Shown here piece by piece: positions 13,328 through 23,856 of a DNA stretch of 28,691 bases (position 1 is its first letter; every line of letters starts with the position of its first letter). The notes below the pieces were generated by a model. It saw nothing but the letters and a program-made list of their open reading frames with translations, was not told where the DNA came from and did no database searches. Source of the DNA: a virus; IMG/VR virus record IMGVR_UViG_3300005095_000041, positions 1 through 28,691 of that record; one strand, given 5' to 3'. The position numbers and the translations under genes are program-made.

Positions 13328-16300
13328 ATGGTTGGGATGGGTAGTCCGCAAATAATCATTCAAGAGTACAATCTTTCCGTTTATATCCCGAATGCAAAAG
13401 GGCTTACCTTTGCGTTGATTATGGATAGCGAGAAAGGGGAAACTGGGGAGATACATGTTGCCACAAACCCACAAGAGTTAATAGATCAAGCTGGAAAACC
13501 TAGTCCCGAGAAGTACGGGGTTGGTATCTATTCTGCTCTTAATGTTTTAGAAGAAACCAACCGCTTGCTATGGGTGAGAGTTGATAAAGGACAGCTGTAT
13601 TCTTCGTTGCTGGTAAGAGGGAAAATCGCTCCTGTTGTAGATAAAGATAGTTATGGTTATCTATTGCCAGAGCCTCAAGTAGATCCAATTGTAAAACCTA
13701 ACGGCTCAATGAGTAAAGAGGATTGGGAAAAGTTTGAATTTCCACAATATCCAAGAAAAAGAGAAGTTGGACACTTTGAGCCAGATGTGCATTTAAAACT
13801 TATCCCCACTCAAGGAGATACGCGTATCTATGTGGACAATGTATCTAATGCTCAAGTAGGGGATTACATCACTTTCAAAGACACAAACGATATAGCAGAT
13901 AGAGAGGAGGTTTTAAAATATAGCTACTACCTCATTACTGCGGTGGGGGAAGAAGTTATAACCCAAGACTATATCGTTACTCAAGACCCTATCCCTAACA
14001 CAATTCCAGTAGGTACAGAAATTAAAAAGGTGATTGAGCAGGGAGCAGATATTGGAGCTACTCTAGAGGCAGATGCTACGGCTGGAGACACCACTTTATC
14101 AGTCAATGATGCAAGCTTATGGAGCGTTGGGGATAGAGTAACTTTTTCAACTGACATGAAGAGCGGGGTTTATACGATTTTAGAGATAGACTTAGATAAT
14201 AACACTCTAACCATCGACCCCTCTTTAAGCGATAACTATCCCCAAAGTAGTAAAGTTTATAAAGTTGTTAAGCAGTATGTAAGCTTCAACTATCCAGTAC
14301 ATATTAAATGGATTGACCCAGCTGACAACACCCGCTTGATGGTTGATTCTAACGACCCGATTGCGGAGGGAGATGTTTTAGAGATCAACGGGATAGAAAC
14401 CACTTTGAGCAGTAAATATCAACTGGACAACAAGATTAACTACTTCGATTTAGATAAAGAGTATTCCCCTGATGTAAAGCTATCGGTAGGAGATGTAGTC
14501 TACAAGCTAATCCACACAGACTGGGAATATAGAGACTGCTTTTTAATTAGAGCTGAAAGCGGGGGAGAGTGGGGTAATAGAATCAGTGTAGCAATTTATG
14601 ATAGCAAGGTTTCCATCCCAAATACTTTTGTAGTAGCGGTTTATGTAGATGGGGTTCAAAAAGAGGAACACTTATGTTCTCGACGCAAGCAAATAGATAG
14701 CAGGGGTCGCCAACTTTTTATAGAGGATGTTATCAATAACCAATCCAAATATATTCGAGTTAAAGATAATCCTCTTATGATAGATGAAAATGGCGACCCA
14801 GTTGAACCATTAAGAACCACTTACCATTATATCCAAAAAGAAAAAGAACCGCTCTATTACAAAGTTGCTACTGCTGTAGAGTCTATTTGGGATAAAGATA
14901 ATTACATACGAGTTAACCCAGAAGATATTGTAAACATCGATGTTTTAAAGCCTCTTCAAATAGCTGGAAAGTTGTACGATATTGCTGAAATTACAAAGTC
15001 ATGTGCGGAGTGTACTTATGACACGATTGTCTTAAAACAGCCTATCGATTTGAGCGATATGAGCAACCTGCTCCCGCTTGATAGAAAGCTAGATATAGGG
15101 ACGGAGCTAAAACAAAGCTTTGATAGAGCAAAAGTTATCGATGTTTTTCTTTTAGACTATCAAGACAACACCAACTACTATATTAGCATTAAGGGATATA
15201 ACGGGACAATCTATCAATACACCTATACGAGTGTTAGTGGAGATAACGCAACGGCAGTATTGCAAAAACTAGCAGACGCCATAAATGCAGACGCTAACCC
15301 TTTTGTGGATGCTAGTTTAACTAGTAGTGGGACATTAAGATTAACCGCCGATGTAGCAGGGGTTGACTTTGAGATCACCGAGACTAACCTCTCCTATGTA
15401 ATCGTTGTAGAAAACGCGAGAGCGTGGCTTGTTTATCCTTTAGAGCGTGTTGATGGCTCTATTTATGCAGATGCTACTATAGGAGCCATTGTAGAGATAG
15501 ATGGTACAAAATATATCGTTTGGGATGCTGGAGCAAATAAGGCAACTGGTGGAGACGATGCAGGTTATCCAACCATTGGTCAGTACTTACTTGCTTTAGA
15601 CCTCTTCAAAAATCCTGAAACCAGCAATTTTATAGCCTTTTTAGACGCGGGTGTAACAGAGGTGGCTTATGCTCAAGCCATTACCCAGATGTGCGAAAAA
15701 AGACAAGATTGCGTAGGGTTGTTAAGTGTGTCTTATGAAGCTCAAGCTAATCCTGATATACAGGAGGTTATTGAGTATAGAAAAAACCTAGGAATTAACA
15801 GCTCTTATGCGACTCTTACAACTCCATGGGTTAAGATAGTTGATAAATATAACGATATAGAAATTTTTATATCGCCTGAAAGCTTTGTGGCGAGGGCTAT
15901 CGCGAGAACGGAGCGAGAAAAAGGGATATTCTATCCTGCTTTTTGGTTAAAAAGAGGAAAAGTTTACGCTCAAGGATTGGGAGCAGACTATGATCAAGGG
16001 GACAGAGACCTTCTTTATGATTATCAAATCAACCCTATCTTTAGACACAAAAGCGGTCAGGCTATCATTGGAGGGCAAAAGACTCTTACCCCCGAACCAA
16101 GTGCACTTGATAGGCTTAACACAAGGTTGTTACTCATAGTGTTAGAGCAAGGGATTAAACAGGTTTTAGATTACTCAATTGGAGACTTAAATCTAGAGTC
16201 CGAAAGAAGAAGAGTTAGGCTAAACATTGAAACCTACCTCATCGATGTAAGAGCTAAAGGAGGAGTTGTCCAGTTTAGAGTAGTGGTAGATGAAACCAAT

Positions 16301-16447
16301 AACACCCCTCAACGCATCGCTAATCATGAATTTTATGCAGATGTGTATATAGCTCCTTCTTCTGCTATTGAGTATCCATTCTTAAGAATTGGGGTAACAC
16401 GAGAAGACAACATCACAAAAGTAAATATCCAGCCTCTAGTAGCATAA
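13328..16447 (+). CDS. Tail sheath protein, enlarged by two insertions
   Basis: This is the contractile outer tube. Residues 1-100 match the sheath N-terminal domain (SPQIIIQEYNLSVYIP, then LNVLEETNRLLWVRV). The ESGGEWGNRISVAI block at about 405, and the Asp, Arg and Ser-rich block at about 440-490, follow the normal sheath order. The C-terminal domain spans about 740-1039, with GGDDAGYPTIGQYLLALDLF at its start and LKRGKVYAQGLG inside. Normal T4-like sheaths have about 650 residues. Here extra beta-rich, Asp and Gly-rich segments occupy about 105-395 and 495-735. They probably decorate the outside of the tail. The ATG at 13328 has AAAAGGAGG. No frameshift is visible. Confidence 0.93.
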   Translation: MVGMGSPQIIIQEYNLSVYIPNAKGLTFALIMDSEKGETGEIHVATNPQELIDQAGKPSPEKYGVGIYSALNVLEETNRLLWVRVDKGQLYSSLLVRGKIAPVVDKDSYGYLLPEPQVDPIVKPNGSMSKEDWEKFEFPQYPRKREVGHFEPDVHLKLIPTQGDTRIYVDNVSNAQVGDYITFKDTNDIADREEVLKYSYYLITAVGEEVITQDYIVTQDPIPNTIPVGTEIKKVIEQGADIGATLEADATAGDTTLSVNDASLWSVGDRVTFSTDMKSGVYTILEIDLDNNTLTIDPSLSDNYPQSSKVYKVVKQYVSFNYPVHIKWIDPADNTRLMVDSNDPIAEGDVLEINGIETTLSSKYQLDNKINYFDLDKEYSPDVKLSVGDVVYKLIHTDWEYRDCFLIRAESGGEWGNRISVAIYDSKVSIPNTFVVAVYVDGVQKEEHLCSRRKQIDSRGRQLFIEDVINNQSKYIRVKDNPLMIDENGDPVEPLRTTYHYIQKEKEPLYYKVATAVESIWDKDNYIRVNPEDIVNIDVLKPLQIAGKLYDIAEITKSCAECTYDTIVLKQPIDLSDMSNLLPLDRKLDIGTELKQSFDRAKVIDVFLLDYQDNTNYYISIKGYNGTIYQYTYTSVSGDNATAVLQKLADAINADANPFVDASLTSSGTLRLTADVAGVDFEITETNLSYVIVVENARAWLVYPLERVDGSIYADATIGAIVEIDGTKYIVWDAGANKATGGDDAGYPTIGQYLLALDLFKNPETSNFIAFLDAGVTEVAYAQAITQMCEKRQDCVGLLSVSYEAQANPDIQEVIEYRKNLGINSSYATLTTPWVKIVDKYNDIEIFISPESFVARAIARTEREKGIFYPAFWLKRGKVYAQGLGADYDQGDRDLLYDYQINPIFRHKSGQAIIGGQKTLTPEPSALDRLNTRLLLIVLEQGIKQVLDYSIGDLNLESERRRVRLNIETYLIDVRAKGGVVQFRVVVDETNNTPQRIANHEFYADVYIAPSSAIEYPFLRIGVTREDNITKVNIQPLVA

Positions 16448-16457
16448 GGAGTAAAAG

Positions 16458-16982
16458 ATGTCTAAACTTCGCCTAACAGAACATCTAAGCGATGAAACCC
16501 AACTCACGGGGTTTTGGGATATAGTGATCGGTAGCGGTCCGTTAAGTGAATTTGCCTCGGATTTGGAAAAGTTAGTGGTAGAGCTTACACATCCAAGCCC
16601 TACCTATAACAATCCTATCGTAGATACAACAACTCAACCTATGGTGGTTCCAGGCGACATAAGCCGTATAGTAGAAGTTCCCTTTCGTTTTAGGGAAACT
16701 ACAAAGTTGCCAGTTAGTAAAGCTATAGAAACTACTTGGAATAAAAAGTATTATGAAGCTAGCGGTGGAGATGTTACTGGGAAAAGTGAAGGCTACGACC
16801 CTTTGTATCAGGATATAGAAGCGATGCTACAAGATAGAACCGATAGTACAAATGGTACTTTAAAGTTTTATAAGGGGCTTCCATCTAGTTATGAAGGCAT
16901 CACTCTAACCCCTAAAGGGGATGCGAATGTAGTGATGTATATTACGCTAAATATTATGTTTAACTTCTACACCTTCGAGTAA
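16458..16982 (+). CDS. Tail tube protein (gp19-like)
   Basis: The 174-residue protein directly after the sheath is beta-rich. It shows LTGFWDIVIGSGPLSEFASD near the start, a Pro/Thr-rich loop (47-65) and a closing strand, FNFYTFE. That is the tube fold pattern of T4 gp19 and related proteins, which stack as hexamers inside the sheath and carry DNA. The start has AAGGAG at 16447-16452. It is followed, two bases after the stop, by a second tube-like protein, so which of the two makes the main tube cannot be decided from this sequence. This one has the usual place, next to the sheath. Confidence 0.68.
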   Translation: MSKLRLTEHLSDETQLTGFWDIVIGSGPLSEFASDLEKLVVELTHPSPTYNNPIVDTTTQPMVVPGDISRIVEVPFRFRETTKLPVSKAIETTWNKKYYEASGGDVTGKSEGYDPLYQDIEAMLQDRTDSTNGTLKFYKGLPSSYEGITLTPKGDANVVMYITLNIMFNFYTFE

Positions 16983-16983
16983 G

Positions 16984-17493
16984 ATGACCTCCTCTTTAAG
17001 AAGTACTTTAACCTTTGAGCCTTATATCGAGCATAACTGGTGGGTAGCTTTTGAAGGGTTTGATGTAAGAAATAGCGGGGGAAGTATAGGGCTTGATTTT
17101 CCCGCTCTTAGTGTAGAGGAGAATGTAGCCTCCATCGAATACGACGCTCTCTATGTCGCTAATAATTTCAAGGTGGAGTTCCCCCGCAATATAAGCTATT
17201 TGGGCGATATTACAATAACTTTTTACGATGATGGGAAACGCCCTTTACTTTTAGAGCGTCTTTTGCTGGTATGGATTGATGAGGTACATTCCCACAACAC
17301 GATTAACTCCCCTCAAGATGTAGCCAAAGAGATAACTATTTATCGTAGCAGTCGCACTGATAGCAAGGTACACTCTAAATATAAAGTATTACCGCCAAGA
17401 AATCTTGATAGCAATCAAACAAGAGAGGTTAAAGTGTATAATAACACTATCACCTTGCCAATTGTGCAGGTGTTACAACTTTATGAAGAATAA
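16984..17493 (+). CDS. Second tube-like tail protein
   Basis: The 169-residue protein also reads as a T4 gp19-type tube subunit. WWVAFEGF is followed by a Gly/Ser loop, SIGLDFPALSVEEN, then a strand-rich middle with FPRNISYLGDITITFYDD, and a final beta segment. It starts two bases after the previous stop and has no clear Shine-Dalgarno of its own, so it is probably coupled. Two adjacent tube-like genes could give a main tube and a tube-initiator or completion protein (T4 gp48/gp54-like), or a mixed tube. It is not a recent copy, because the two sequences share little identity by eye. Confidence 0.6.
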   Translation: MTSSLRSTLTFEPYIEHNWWVAFEGFDVRNSGGSIGLDFPALSVEENVASIEYDALYVANNFKVEFPRNISYLGDITITFYDDGKRPLLLERLLLVWIDEVHSHNTINSPQDVAKEITIYRSSRTDSKVHSKYKVLPPRNLDSNQTREVKVYNNTITLPIVQVLQLYEE

Positions 17494-17502
17494 GGAGGAA
17501 TA

Positions 17503-18523
17503 TTGGCTACACCAAAGCAACCCCAGAAAAAGATGCGTTCAACTAAAGGGATTAGAGTTCCCAAAATAGTATTTAGCCCCGCAGAAGATTCTGTAGAGCT
17601 CAAAGAAGCCCCGTCTCGCTTTCTCCCGTATCCAACAAATAAGTTTATCATTAGAAGGCTTACTTTAGGAGAAGTTAAAAGGTTTGCTAAACTAAATACG
17701 CAACCAAGCGTAGAGTTAAATATCTCTCTTTACTCTTCAGCTTTAAAACAAGAAGACATTAGGCTTGAAGACACCATTGTAGTTGATACAAAGTGGCTAA
17801 TTTTAGCTATAACAGCCTTGACAATGCAAGAATTTCAGCTAAATGTAAGTTACTTTTGTCCTAATGAAAACTGCCCTCATAATTCCACCCCTATTGAAGA
17901 TACTCTCGCTTTAGAGGACATAGAATTTGAGGAGCTAAAGGCTAAAAGTTTCACTTATCAGGGTAAAGACTTTTTTCCATATAGAACAAAAGATGAGATT
18001 TTTTTGGAGAAGGCTCAAGAGGATATTAACGATATACTAGAAGATAGAGGGCTTCTTCCTGATGACCGCGAGATGATTACACTTACTTTATGTGCAAATC
18101 CTGAAATAGCAAATAGTCACTTTGGCTCTTTGGAAATGAGTATCGAGATGTTTGAGAGAACGCTAGAAGAAATTATGCAGTTACCCTATTTTCCTAAAGA
18201 AGTGGCAAAGCTATACGCTGATTTAACACCTGATATAGGTCTTATCGATAGGGTATGCCCATCTTGTGGAGCTCAATTTAAATTTAGATTTGAATTACCT
18301 TTAAACAAGGCTTTGCTTTAAAAACATCTCCTATAACGACATTATCGAATCTATTTTTGAAACGATTTTAAACTCCGAAAAAGCTTTTGGATATAGCGAG
18401 CTATTAAGTATGCCATTTGATGAGTTTATATATTTTTCTAACTTATCAGAGCGATATATGGACGAAAAGATAAGAAAATTGGAATCACACATTAAAAAAA
18501 TGAAAAGGGGGTCTAGATGGTAG
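17503..18523 (+). CDS. Zinc-binding tail assembly chaperone, +1 frameshift form
   Basis: The base product (17503-18321, TTG start behind AAGGAGG at 17492-17498) has 272 residues. It starts with a basic disordered tail, has RRLTLGEVKRFAKL around 50, then two Cys pairs: FCPNENCPH and, near the C-terminus, CPSCG. This is the pattern of baseplate-hub assembly or chaperone proteins (T4 gp26-like) placed between tube and tape measure. At codon 272 the mRNA reads CTT-TAA-AAA. A shift of +1 there (CTT re-pairing on TTT) opens a 67-codon extension, ending at TAG 18521-18523, inside the tape-measure start (ATGGTAG). That extension has no own start codon. The fused product would have 339 residues. The shift is inferred, and an indel error is the alternative. 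Confidence 0.65.
18307..18322 (+). promoter_or_regulatory. Candidate +1 programmed frameshift site
   Basis: AAGG at 18307-18310 is followed by five bases, then CTT (18316-18318), the stop TAA and AAA. CTT-stop is the same arrangement as in the bacterial release-factor-2 gene, where the ribosome slips +1 at CTT-TGA with help from an upstream Shine-Dalgarno-like site; there the spacing is 3, so this site is less ideal. The +1 frame is open only from 18305, so the shift must occur within 16 bases, and CTT/TAA is the only plausible codon pair. Confidence 0.55.
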
Positions 18524-21500
18524 AGAAAGGAGATCAATCGGGTGGCACTATCCAGCCCGCTAAAATTATTGTCGATACTCTTAAAGAGGAGATACAAACT
18601 GGCGTAATCGCTTTAAAAAAAGCTTGCGAGTTAAACGACAATAATACCCCCTCTGCCTCTATTCAACCCTCTTTTTCATTTGGGATTAACAGGGAAAATC
18701 TTTATCTTAAAAAAGAGGAAGCTTATCTAGAGGCTACAACCACCGACTTAACCCCCGTTGTAGAAGAGTTGAGAAACGGCTTTGATTCTTTAAAAAAAAC
18801 TTTGCAAAAAAACCAAGAGCAGGTTCAAGTAGCCGTATTAAAAGAGGTAGAAAAGTACCAAAAAGAGGTTTTAAGTCAGATTGAACCCTCTATTATAACG
18901 ATTCAAGATAAGCTTAAGTATCTTGATAACAAAGTGGAGAGAGTAGAAGAAGCCTCTATGATGCTTAAGGAGCGAATGGTTGATGAGGTTTTACCTTCTC
19001 TCCTAGCCTTAAGCCCTTTAAAGATGCTTCAACAGCAGTTGGAGAGAAAAGATAATAATGAAGCATCTTCAAGGGGTGAAATAGGCGGTCTTTTGCTAGA
19101 CTACCTTGCAAATAAGAAAAAAGATAAAGTAAGCGGGCGAATTGCTAGGGTTATAAAAAAGCAGACCTTACAAAAAATTACCCTCAAAAGCGTTGAAAAG
19201 TTTCAAGAGGAGAGCAGTAAAAAGGGGATTAAAGAGGGGTTTAAAGAAGCGTTAAGATATGGAGGTTCTAGAAGTGCAAAGGTTGTTAAGGCTGTTTTTA
19301 GCAAAAAGACACCTCAACCGCAAAGCAAACTCACCGCAACCTTAACACCTGAACTTAATATATCTTCAAAAGAAATTCAACCTCCTCAACCTAGTTATCC
19401 CATTGTACGCTCCCGCCCTTCTTCAACCTCACTAAACACCCTAACTAACCAAACCCAAAACACAATCACAGCATCGCTTGTAACAAAAAAAGAGTCTTTT
19501 CCACTAGTAAGTCGAACCCTCTCTAATGCAAAATCATTAACAAAAGGGGCTCTTAAACGACTTCCAGTAGTGGGCGGATTGGTAGAGGTAGCATCTACCG
19601 CAAAGAGCCTAGCTGAAAGCCCTACGACTGCAAAACTAAAAGAAACCGCGGGGCAAGGGATAGGTGGAGCAGTCGGTGGAGCGATAGGTGGAGTAATTGG
19701 GGCTTTAATCCCTTTACCTGCTACCTCTATCATAGGGGCTACAATTGGCTCTTTTGTGGGCGAAAAGATTGGGGGTACAATCGCTCACCTCTTTACAAAA
19801 AAAGAAGACTTTCTCCCAACGTCTATAAAAAAACTCCCCCCATTTAGGCGGTTAGAAGTTGTTACACAGGCTATCAATCAAGCTCAAAGAGAGCAAGTAA
19901 ACATTTTTACAGGTGAAGCTTTCAACTCTAAAGAGGAGTTAATTTCTTTTATCAAGAATTTAGAGGCTTATAAAAAAGAGGTACTGCGAAAAGAGATTAT
20001 CCCTACTATTAGCCATCTAAATCTTTCAAGCGACCCAGTACAAACCATAGCCAAAAAGTTTAAGACCAACAAAGAGACTGCACAGCTAATCTATTCTCAA
20101 TGGCTCTCTACAACGCAAAAAAGCGACATAACCTTAAAAAGTAAAAGCGATTCAGATAAAGAGGTACTTGCAAATCTACCGCTCTTCCTACCTTCTTCTC
20201 AAGAAAGCAAGGAGAGCCGAGTAAAAATCGCTTCTAAAGCAGAGGTTTCTTCAGCTACGCTCAAGCCAACAAAAGAATCGCTTTCTTCTAATATTAGCAA
20301 TGCAACTATATTTTTAAGAGATAGTATAACAATGGCGGACGTAGGCGATGGAGAGAAATTTAAGGCGATATTGTTTAATCAACCATCGCTGGGACAGCCA
20401 ACCATCGCGGGGCAGCCAACCATCGCGGGGCAGCCAACCATCGCGGGGTCGCCCGCCTCTTTTAATGTTGCAACGGCTCAACTGCAACCGCTTTTATCAA
20501 TAACAGGTAACCAAGGGCATAGTTTAGCATTAAAAAAAGAGGAATTAGCTCTACAAAAAGAAGGCTTCTTATCTAGCTCTATTAGTAAACTAACCTCTAT
20601 TATCAATCAAACCGCTCAAGATTCTTTTAATAATATCAAAAAACAAAACACCGCCCTTTTGGAAATAAGAGATAAACAGGAGCAACTAGTAGACGCGTTT
20701 ACTGGGTTTATTAGCTCTAGCGAAAGGGAGAAAAACAAAGATTTAACAAAAGAAAAAATGGTCTTTGGGCGGGTTAATACTAAAAGCGATATTAAGTTAC
20801 AGCCCTCCGTTTTTGCAAAAGAAGTAATAACTAAAAAACTTCTAGACACTAGAGAAGGTGGCGTATTAACTACGCACACAACGCGACTAGAGCGAGATAG
20901 GTTCTCCCTTCAAACAGCAAAAGAGAAAATTATCAAAAAGGATCACCTACAAGAAGCTCACACAAAAGAGAGTAAGGAAGTCTCAGGAGAGAAAAACAGC
21001 TACTCCTCTTTAGCCACTCAATCATCCGCCTCTTTATCGTTTCAATTTAGTAAAACAGCTCAAAACAAGTTAAATAAAATTAACGAGCTAACACAGATTG
21101 CCCAAACTAACGCTATTTGGTCAGCAGTCAATAGTATAGAGCAAAATAACAAAAATAAGATAACAAAAGAGCAAAAAAAAGCAGTAACTCAAGTAAATGG
21201 GGTTATAGATAGAGAAAAAGAGAGCAAACGAGAAACGCGTGCAGTTGTAAACATCATCCCGCCTTCATCTTTAAAGACACATAATCAGCAGTTACTTAAG
21301 AGAGATGGGGAGGTTATTGTAATTCCACAACTTAAAGAGTTTCGTAGTAGCCATATAACAACCCGTTTTACACAAAAACATCCGCCTCCTAAACCACAAA
21401 AACAGCCCCCAGAAGGTTTTGTTTATCTCAAAAGAGGGGGCAACTATACGAGTAAAAGCGAACCTTTTTTAAGAGAAGGGTCTAGGGAGTTTGTAAGAAG

Positions 21501-23856
21501 CAGTAAGATAGAGGTAATTTCAACGCCTTTAGTCTCCTCTAGTCAATCTTTTAACCAGTCCCTCTTTTTGCAACCTCAACAGCAGGCGTTAACAGCTTCC
21601 AAACTATCATCTAAAGAGTCGTTGAGGGCGATTGAGGCAACCCCTTCAATAGAAAAAACAACCTCCACCCTTTTAAGAAGCGACTCTTCTAATGACTCTT
21701 TGGTTAAAGCTGGAGTTAAAGAGTTTTTTCAGGGGACTGCTACTATCTCTACAAAACAGCAATCTTTAAAAGAGAGGGAGAAGGTTTTACCGCTAAATAG
21801 CCAGCAGTTGCTTAATAAGACATCTCAAAGATTGGAAGCGTCTGCGACCTTATCTAATAAGCAAAGCTCCACTGCACAGGTTGCAACTATAAACAGCCTC
21901 TCAAGTTACTATGATATTATAGATAAGATGAGTAGAGAGGCTTTAACTTCTTTTCTTTTATACCTAGCAACATTCCATAATATAGAAGCTCCATCTCTTA
22001 AAGATGTGCAGTCGATAAAGCAGTGGTTAAAGAGTTCTCCTAGTTTGTCTCCTATATTAAAGAACTACCAAGAATCAAATCGATTACAAACCTCCCTAAC
22101 GCTAATTGCTAAAAACCGATTTGATGAGGATATTTCAAAAGGGTTCGTTAATGTTGTAAACAGCTCTTTAAGTAGATACTCAACGCAAAAGGTCGATAAT
22201 GCATTAAAGCTATTGCAAGGAGATCCAAATACAGCTCTTTTCTTAACTCTTCTCCAAGCTCTTAATTCTCAATCTAGCAATAATCTACAAAAAAGAGGGG
22301 AGGAAGTTTTAAACCTATCTCAAGCTTCATATACCCAAGCAAATGGTTTGAGAGCTACCAAGGGAGGATTAAACACTCACCAAGTTCTCAACACCTCTAA
22401 CGCTATAAGCTTGACAGCTTCACACGAAAAAACCACCCCTTTTGTAAACACTAAACTAGGAAAAGCTTTTGATTTAACCCAGATTGTAAACTGGTCAAAA
22501 TTAACAGAGTCAAAAGCACAGAACTCTTTTCTTTTTGCAAAAAACGCTAAATTAGAAAAGCCTCACTCTTTTACAGCCCAGATCGAAAACCTATCGAATT
22601 CGAGGGGTTTAAAAACAGGTACTCCGCTTCTTTTTGTAAAAAACAATAAACTAAAAAAGCCTTACTTCTCTAGTATAGCCCAAATAACAAACTTATCACA
22701 TTTAAGAAGCTTAAGCGACTCTCCTCCCTCAACCCCTTATATGGCGGAGTTTTTTAAGAGTGTTACAGGGGAGAGTAAAGGCGTCGAGGCGTCAAGTTTC
22801 TTCAAAGAGCAAAGCACAGGTTTAACTAAAGAAGCTATCTCTACCGCCTCAATTTCTACCGCTTCGCAAGCTAGCACCGCCTCTTTAGGGGAAGAAAACA
22901 AAGGGAGTATTTCAGCAACCTTTAACCTTGCCTCCCAAGGCTTAAAAACCTTAAAAAAAGATGAGGTGGAAGCCAAACTTTTAGCGATGGTAAGAAAAAA
23001 TGAAACGGGTTCTTTTAAAGGCAACTACTCCCTTGCTAAAGATATAGGCGATGGGGCGGGGGTTTCTTTTGGAGCGTATCAATTTACCCAAAAAAGCGGT
23101 ATGATAGAGAAGTTTCTAGAAAGGTATGCTCAAAAGACTCAAGATGCTAGAGTTGAAAAGGTTTTAGAAAAGCTCAAAAAGGGAGAGGTAAGCCAAAGAG
23201 AGCTTATTTCTTTATTGGGTAGCATTGGAGGTACAAAAGAGGGGATTGCGATCCAAGATGAGCTTGCTAAACAAAACTACATTACCCCCGCCTTGAAACT
23301 AGCGAGTAAATACGGAGTAAAGAACCCTAGAGCGATAGCCCAAGTTGTGGATATGTCTATAAATGCTGGTTTAGGTGGGGCTAGAAGAATGTTAGAGCTA
23401 GCAAAAGGAAAAGTTGATGAGGAAGGTATAGCCAGTGCGAGGATAGCTTACTATCAACAACTAGCTCAAAGAAACCCCCGCCTACAAAAATTCTTAAGAG
23501 GGTGGATAAATCGCGTTAGTAGAGTAAGCAACGAAAGCCAAAATCTTTTTATCCCCTCCGACTCCGCTTCCGTTTCATTAGCTTTTAATATGCCCAAAAC
23601 AGCAAATCGTCGCATAGAGTATGAAGCCTTGCGGGATAGTTTGCTATTAAAAGAGGCGAAGGATAAAGAGTCTAAATCTTCAAAACAGCAACCCACATCA
23701 ACAACACCGCCACCACCGCCCCCAAATGTATCAAATCAACAGCTAATAACTCCAGCCTTTCAAACCCATACAAAGCAGGTCGTAGATAATTCTAGCAGTT
23801 ATGTACCAGACTTTGCCTTTGAGTTGTTTTTAACAGGAGCTGGGAATAGGGGGTAG
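18517..23856 (+). CDS. Tape measure protein with muralytic domain
   Basis: This 1779-residue protein sets tail length and is ejected during infection. Long Lys/Glu/Ser/Thr/Gln-rich helical stretches, some coiled coil near 85-160, fill most of it. Residues 379-426 form a glycine-zipper segment (GQGIGGAVGGAIGGVIGALI and following) that could insert in a membrane. Residues about 1485-1670 look like a peptidoglycan hydrolase: Glu1496 in KNETGS and Asp1512 in IGDGAGVSFGAYQF have the spacing of the acid pair in GH46-type enzymes, and a GWINRV motif closes it. The C-terminal tail is Pro-rich. The start ATG is behind AAAAGGGGG and overlaps the stop of the frameshift extension. At 0.15 nm per residue the tail could be up to about 260 nm long. 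Confidence 0.9.
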   Translation: MVEKGDQSGGTIQPAKIIVDTLKEEIQTGVIALKKACELNDNNTPSASIQPSFSFGINRENLYLKKEEAYLEATTTDLTPVVEELRNGFDSLKKTLQKNQEQVQVAVLKEVEKYQKEVLSQIEPSIITIQDKLKYLDNKVERVEEASMMLKERMVDEVLPSLLALSPLKMLQQQLERKDNNEASSRGEIGGLLLDYLANKKKDKVSGRIARVIKKQTLQKITLKSVEKFQEESSKKGIKEGFKEALRYGGSRSAKVVKAVFSKKTPQPQSKLTATLTPELNISSKEIQPPQPSYPIVRSRPSSTSLNTLTNQTQNTITASLVTKKESFPLVSRTLSNAKSLTKGALKRLPVVGGLVEVASTAKSLAESPTTAKLKETAGQGIGGAVGGAIGGVIGALIPLPATSIIGATIGSFVGEKIGGTIAHLFTKKEDFLPTSIKKLPPFRRLEVVTQAINQAQREQVNIFTGEAFNSKEELISFIKNLEAYKKEVLRKEIIPTISHLNLSSDPVQTIAKKFKTNKETAQLIYSQWLSTTQKSDITLKSKSDSDKEVLANLPLFLPSSQESKESRVKIASKAEVSSATLKPTKESLSSNISNATIFLRDSITMADVGDGEKFKAILFNQPSLGQPTIAGQPTIAGQPTIAGSPASFNVATAQLQPLLSITGNQGHSLALKKEELALQKEGFLSSSISKLTSIINQTAQDSFNNIKKQNTALLEIRDKQEQLVDAFTGFISSSEREKNKDLTKEKMVFGRVNTKSDIKLQPSVFAKEVITKKLLDTREGGVLTTHTTRLERDRFSLQTAKEKIIKKDHLQEAHTKESKEVSGEKNSYSSLATQSSASLSFQFSKTAQNKLNKINELTQIAQTNAIWSAVNSIEQNNKNKITKEQKKAVTQVNGVIDREKESKRETRAVVNIIPPSSLKTHNQQLLKRDGEVIVIPQLKEFRSSHITTRFTQKHPPPKPQKQPPEGFVYLKRGGNYTSKSEPFLREGSREFVRSSKIEVISTPLVSSSQSFNQSLFLQPQQQALTASKLSSKESLRAIEATPSIEKTTSTLLRSDSSNDSLVKAGVKEFFQGTATISTKQQSLKEREKVLPLNSQQLLNKTSQRLEASATLSNKQSSTAQVATINSLSSYYDIIDKMSREALTSFLLYLATFHNIEAPSLKDVQSIKQWLKSSPSLSPILKNYQESNRLQTSLTLIAKNRFDEDISKGFVNVVNSSLSRYSTQKVDNALKLLQGDPNTALFLTLLQALNSQSSNNLQKRGEEVLNLSQASYTQANGLRATKGGLNTHQVLNTSNAISLTASHEKTTPFVNTKLGKAFDLTQIVNWSKLTESKAQNSFLFAKNAKLEKPHSFTAQIENLSNSRGLKTGTPLLFVKNNKLKKPYFSSIAQITNLSHLRSLSDSPPSTPYMAEFFKSVTGESKGVEASSFFKEQSTGLTKEAISTASISTASQASTASLGEENKGSISATFNLASQGLKTLKKDEVEAKLLAMVRKNETGSFKGNYSLAKDIGDGAGVSFGAYQFTQKSGMIEKFLERYAQKTQDARVEKVLEKLKKGEVSQRELISLLGSIGGTKEGIAIQDELAKQNYITPALKLASKYGVKNPRAIAQVVDMSINAGLGGARRMLELAKGKVDEEGIASARIAYYQQLAQRNPRLQKFLRGWINRVSRVSNESQNLFIPSDSASVSLAFNMPKTANRRIEYEALRDSLLLKEAKDKESKSSKQQPTSTTPPPPPPNVSNQQLITPAFQTHTKQVVDNSSSYVPDFAFELFLTGAGNRG
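19651..19794 (+). other. Glycine-zipper hydrophobic segment in tape measure
   Basis: Residues 379-426 have repeating small residues (GGAVGGAIGGVIGALIP, then a second block with GATIGSFVGEKIGGTIAHLF) on hydrophobic faces. This is the pattern of membrane-inserting or pore-forming helices, often seen in tape measure proteins. It may form the channel through which phage DNA crosses the inner membrane. It is the clearest hydrophobic stretch in this otherwise polar protein. Membrane activity is inferred, not shown. Confidence 0.5.
20395..20448 (+). repeat. Three perfect 18-bp tandem repeats
   Basis: The unit CAGCCAACCATCGCGGGG occurs three times without mismatch, at 20395-20412, 20413-20430 and 20431-20448. 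A degenerate fourth copy lies just upstream (around 20379-20394). Each unit encodes QPTIAG in frame (residues 627-644). The unit is much richer in GC than the gene around it. Perfect identity suggests recent slippage, so copy number may vary between relatives. Confidence 0.9.
22528..22719 (+). repeat. Two diverged 33-residue repeats in tape measure
   Basis: Residues around 1338-1368 and 1371-1401 are similar: each has LF, then A or V, K-N-x-K-L, K-P, and an AQI-x-NLS segment. The period is 33 residues (99 bases). They are imperfect at both levels, so the duplication is old. A period of this kind could mark a repeated structural unit, and relatives may have other copy numbers. Confidence 0.75.

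Follow-up and report, generated by a model that had tools for sequence, protein, structure and literature searches.

Introduction

Among the closest described counterparts of the locus analyzed here is the lambda gpG/gpGT gene, which, like ours, lies between tail tube and tape measure and yields a short and a long chaperone through a frameshift near its 3′ end. In the literature, −1 shifts are the rule for such chaperones; the tail chaperone of the haloarchaeal myovirus HSTV-2, a single archaeal case, is described in reviews as very likely made by a +1 shift, and we liken our locus to it by mechanism, not by homology. One review calls the G-T frameshift widespread "except T4", and the title of Vladimirov et al. 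2022, as cited in PMC12846349, has T4-like tail chaperones arising by a mechanism other than frameshifting. T4 itself encodes gp26 and gp51 in separate genes, neither of which has a +1 extension.

Other systems provide well-described +1 sites. The E. coli RF2 gene, prfB, contains AGGGGG-UAU-CUU_UGA_C, in which an SD-like element precedes a CUU codon and a stop codon occupies the A-site. In the tail genes of SPP1 (gp17.1*, with CCC_UAA as a documented +1 site, PMC6316719) and of a Listeria phage (tsh, CCC_UGA), a slippery Pro codon stands directly before the 0-frame stop and the shift extends the tail tube, not a chaperone. UCC_UUU_CGU is the influenza A PA-X site (PMC3498833), and UUU_Y is +1-prone in bacteria (PMC5009743). 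Here we describe a phage locus in which a single chaperone gene very probably makes both a short and a long form by a +1 frameshift at its stop codon, a reading drawn from sequence comparison. It differs from the lambda type in its direction (+1 instead of −1) and in its chaperone, which is of the zinc-type PF12322 family.

The Window and Its Tail Genes

The window is a linear IMG/VR fragment of 28.7 kb (28,691 nt, record IMGVR_UViG_3300005095_000041). With a terminase that shares 28% identity with its counterpart in a 485-kb phage, it probably comes from a large myovirus. The features discussed below all lie on the + strand. The tail sheath (13328..16447, 1039 aa, PHROG sheath E 3e-53) served as the anchor for finding relatives, and its nearest relatives are the sheaths of loci L099, L102, L004, and L005. 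Most sheaths align with only its final 330 or so residues, and the protein therefore has a large extra N-terminal or inserted region. Two tail-tube-like proteins of 174 and 169 aa follow (16458..17493), assigned by gene order and alignment; the second gives weak PHROG tube matches, and phmmer matches the tube-like proteins to second-tube genes of relatives. The tape measure protein (18517..23856, 1779 aa) is assigned by position, length, and similarity to L028 (E 3e-33). In several relatives, the large gene at the tape-measure position carries an annotation of chitosanase, glycoside hydrolase, or endolysin (L004:12682-15621, L007:9779-11872, L009:9851-12709, L012:10386-13580, L212:3496-5837, and L216:3410-5753), which suggests that the tape measure contains a lysozyme-like domain.

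Between tube and tape measure lies an open reading frame for 272 residues with two Cys pairs (17503..18321), which begins with TTG after AAGGAGG and ends with TAA at 18319-18321. Compared directly with Pfam and PHROG, this protein has no match that counts. Profile comparison links it to its syntenic relatives (hhalign probability 98, E 2.3e-13), and phmmer matches it to L046, L004, and L047 with E about 1e-6. Among the 26 syntenic relatives that were scanned, 18 match PF12322 (T4 baseplate protein) and 19 match the PHROG 150 baseplate hub family. The short form and the extension described below were modelled apart in AlphaFold (AF2), not as the fused long form. The AF2 model of the short form (mean pLDDT 74.6) resembles T4-like baseplate hub assembly proteins (Foldseek E 7e-10), represented in T4 by gp26 and gp51; a PDB fold search gave no match. 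Profile comparison, fold comparison, and gene order thus support the identification of the gene as a T4-type (PF12322, gp26/gp51) tail assembly chaperone, with the 272-aa product as its short form (TAC-N), in agreement with the initial annotation, which had named it a tail assembly chaperone.

An Open +1 Frame after the Chaperone Stop

In the window, the +1 frame is bounded by TAA at 18302-18304 and TAG at 18521-18523 and is open from 18305 to 18520. Past the shift point it offers 67 codons (18320..18520), the predicted C-terminal domain of a long form (TAC-NC), and it closes within the ATGGTAG at which the tape measure starts. The first ATG of the extension is codon 31, and the first 30 codons hold no ATG, GTG, or TTG. 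Of the other frames past the chaperone stop, 0-frame readthrough ends after 4 codons and the −1 frame after 16. The initial annotation had proposed a start-less extension that fills this gap and can be reached only by +1 or −2, and on each of these points its description is confirmed.

In first-order shuffles of the gap, a given frame stays open in about 1.3% of trials, so that the window alone is only suggestive and the relatives must decide. Against an HMM of the extensions of its near clade, the window extension is the best of 365 window ORFs at 7.3 bits, a score that 13 of 2000 shuffles equaled, and against an HMM of all other extensions it has no match (0.0 bits). It is too divergent for the all-family HMM and bears only a weak resemblance to the extensions of its clade. 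AF2 predicts three helices with a mean pLDDT of 90.8, a value to be read with no random-frame fold as a baseline, and a Foldseek search with this model found no significant match.

The Proposed Slip Site in the Window

The chaperone and the +1 frame overlap by five sense codons, and only the CTT at 18316-18318 can re-pair in +1, which makes CTT_TAA (18316..18321) the proposed slip site. An SD-like AAGG (18307..18310) lies 5 nt upstream of the slip codon, so that the signal reads AAGG-CTTTG-CTT_TAA, or AAGG-N5-CUU_UAA; the same element and spacing occur in L099, L100, L102, and L103. A slip at CCT (18298-18300), which corresponds in position to the CCC of the family, was considered and rejected because the +1 frame carries TAA there. 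Downstream RNA structure is not conserved (z −1.7 in the window, none in most relatives).

The initial annotation had likened this site to the autoregulatory frameshift of RF2. The layout of SD-like element, slippery codon, and stop is indeed kept in the clade, and the window shares with prfB the CUU before the stop, the SD-like element a few bases upstream, the stop in the A-site, and the +1 direction. The spacing differs (5 nt in AAGG-N5-CUU_UAA versus 3 nt after AGGGGG in prfB), and the gene encodes no release factor. What we reject is RF2-specific control: the RF2-type signal has UGA, sensed by RF2 alone, whereas the window stop is UAA, which both release factors read, so an RF2-specific sensor is not implied. 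Since the window has UAA and the relatives UAA, UAG, or UGA, a general termination pause is expected instead, and control by the speed of stop-codon reading, without RF2 specificity, is possible. Nor does the window match the CCC_U-stop sites of SPP1 and Listeria phage, having CTT in place of CCC directly before the 0-frame stop. At the same place its relatives have CCC_TAA, CCC_TAG, or CCT_TGA; CUU_UAA occurs in the window only, and its near relatives have CCC or CCT before the stop. Alignment with relatives, which the initial annotation had proposed as a check, thus gives a divided result in which the open +1 frame is conserved (51 + 7 loci, below) but CTT_TAA is specific to the window.

The +1 Frame in Relatives

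DNA similarity searches of phages with the window found nothing, close-relative searches with its own chaperone and sheath likewise found nothing, and relatives of its TerL (26-31% identical) yielded no closer chaperones. The sheath pointed by similarity to Carin-5 and Yersinia phage GN1. Both have an unannotated stretch between chaperone and tape measure in which +1 is the sole open frame, beginning right at the stop (CCT_TGA in Carin-5, CCC_TAG in GN1). A scan of IMG/VR with a sheath profile gave 80 loci, and the +1 frame is open across the stop in all 52 in which chaperone and tape measure could be placed. The final set, with the YerA41-type clade added and dereplicated at 60% identity, comprises 51 loci with the order sheath-tube-chaperone-tape measure. 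In 45 of these the +1 frame reaches within 30 nt of the tape measure, compared with 8.5 expected from shuffled gaps (P about 3e-41); the −1 frame does so in 7 and the 0 frame in 5, as chance predicts.

Out-of-sample loci agree with this result. Seven of seven cultured-phage loci found by chaperone similarity alone (RHph_TM39, GR11A, Peetri, SKa-4, Vibrio 1.031.O, Thermus phiLo, and YerA41) carry the +1 extension, and their slip sites are CCC_TTT_CGT (5), CCG_TTT_CGT (1), and CCC_TAG (1). Because Peetri nearly duplicates SKa-4, and YerA41 nearly duplicates GN1, the seven amount to about five independent tests. Between close pairs, the differences in the extension fall mostly at third positions of the +1 frame (for example 6, 2, and 16 in L068/L076), and at the level of sequence the extensions of the relatives carry a coding signal. 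As in phages of the G/GT kind, the gene that immediately precedes the tape measure has an extension in another frame; where that kind usually, though not universally, shifts −1 at a slippery heptanucleotide, the direction here is +1. In all cultured phages examined, among them some with E. coli or P. putida KT2440 as host, the extension is either missing from the annotation or annotated as a separate hypothetical gene.

Individual loci depart from the common pattern. In phiLo (L214:2465-3211), the chaperone homologue is annotated as "DNA methylase" and the +1 extension, with CCG_TTT_CGT, is present though the next annotated gene is not a tape measure. Several Vibrio phages have longer extensions than usual, 50-62 codons past the stop (L008:9999-10153, L012:10196-10383, L211:3292-3443, and L213:3190-3371). 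L118:9617-11147 and L119:9548-11147 have a second Cys-rich domain of 277 aa in the +1 frame after the chaperone. It runs precisely up to the next gene and may be a duplicated chaperone that has a start of its own, or else a very long +1 extension. A more distant relative (L128:9565-9738) has the −1 frame, not the +1 frame, open for 54 codons from a candidate chaperone to near the next gene start. The distant T4-like relatives L121:7967-8894 and L123:9028-10027 have TTT_TTT_Y and open +1 extensions, and +1 shifting may be spread more widely among T4-like phages.

Putative Slip Sites in Relatives

In most relatives the shift would occur upstream of the stop, at CCC_UUU_CGN, which encodes P-F-R. 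The Pro codon at the site is CCC in 34 of 47 cases, compared with 11% elsewhere (P 1e-22), the Phe codon is TTT in 43 of 43, and in-frame CCCTTT is found nowhere else in these chaperones. This heptamer shares with influenza A PA-X the layout of UUU_C in the P-site and CGN in the A-site; PA-X belongs to a eukaryotic virus and an unrelated gene, and the likeness does not extend to the window's own site.

In the clade nearest the window (YerA41/Carin-5), CCC or CCT sits right at the stop. CCC precedes the stop in L005, L099, L100, L102, L103, and YerA41, as in the SPP1 and Listeria sites. L099, L100, and L103 have AAGG-N5-CCC_TAA and L102 has AAGG-N5-CCC_TAG; in each of these four, chaperone and tape measure together contain no CCC codon besides this one. 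GN1 and YerA41 have AGGAG-TTAT-CCC_TAG, and Carin-5, with AGGGGG-TAC-CCT_TGA_C, has almost the prfB signal. An AGG starting at −8 or −9 is present in 7/7 stop-adjacent sites (window included), versus 20/1884 codon boundaries in these genes. By sheath score the stop-adjacent clade is the nearest to the window, and the sheath tree groups the window with it at low support (43). The +1 geometry, the slip codons, and the SD-like element are thus conserved.

Discussion

We weighed the +1 shift at the stop against three other explanations of the locus. The window is a metagenomic fragment in which a one-base difference would join the two parts, and a sequencing or assembly indel might have split a single in-frame chaperone gene. 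This is hardly credible, as the same +1 offset recurs in the 51 dereplicated and 7 cultured-phage loci, with the stop in place and the slip codons under selection, and no relative was seen with both parts in one frame, the observation that the initial annotation had named as decisive against a shift. The extension might instead be a small gene of its own, with translation coupled to that of the chaperone and beginning at or near the chaperone's stop. The annotations of RHph_TM39, GR11A, and Vibrio 1.031.O give it as a separate hypothetical ORF, and a loose test finds a +1-frame start codon accompanied by an SD-like 4-mer in 34 of 58 loci. A separate gene does not explain, however, why CCC, TTT, and AAGG are chosen over synonymous alternatives at the junction, and with 30 start-less codons at the head of the window extension we regard it as very unlikely.

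A real shift could also proceed by another route (−2 or transcriptional slippage) or at a different codon of the overlap. A −2 shift reaches the same frame, and the overlap has five sense codons to choose from; yet CCC_U, CUU_U, and UUU_Y are +1-slippery in known systems, the site lacks a homopolymer run of the length that polymerase slippage needs, and CTT is the one codon in the overlap able to re-pair in +1. We give this route the same slim chance as a separate gene.

Under a +1 shift at the stop, most ribosomes would terminate at UAA (18319) and release the 272-aa short form. A pause at UAA with tRNA-Leu on CUU would allow a forward slip from CUU to UUU, helped by AAGG, in which U18319 is skipped; a shift at CTT predicts the junction ...ALL-KNISYNDIIE. 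By analogy with lambda G/GT, the short form would coat the tape measure, and the long form would add a helical domain that recruits tube subunits, as in lambda GT. Slippage in cells, its rate, and the partner of the extra domain are what we infer from these comparisons.

Text searches of the literature, with most subscription journals outside their coverage, found no report of +1 shifts in this chaperone family, which apparently represents a widespread and undescribed +1 variant of the known phage chaperone frameshift. We consider it likely that a large set of T4-related myoviruses, a group regarded as making its tail chaperones without frameshifting, produces the long chaperone by shifting +1 at a dedicated heptamer, CCC_UUU_CGN, and that in the lineage of the window the signal moved onto the stop and gained an RF2-like rRNA-pairing stimulator. 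In practical terms, the finding corrects the annotation of the cultured phages examined, where the extension is missing or miscalled as a separate hypothetical gene, and it gives the UCC_UUU_CGU class of +1 sites a counterpart among bacterial viruses. For the family itself, it would show a slip site that has moved onto a stop codon in the course of evolution and gained an SD-like stimulator, and one of the best-conserved examples of phage recoding would acquire a broad +1 branch that is open to testing.
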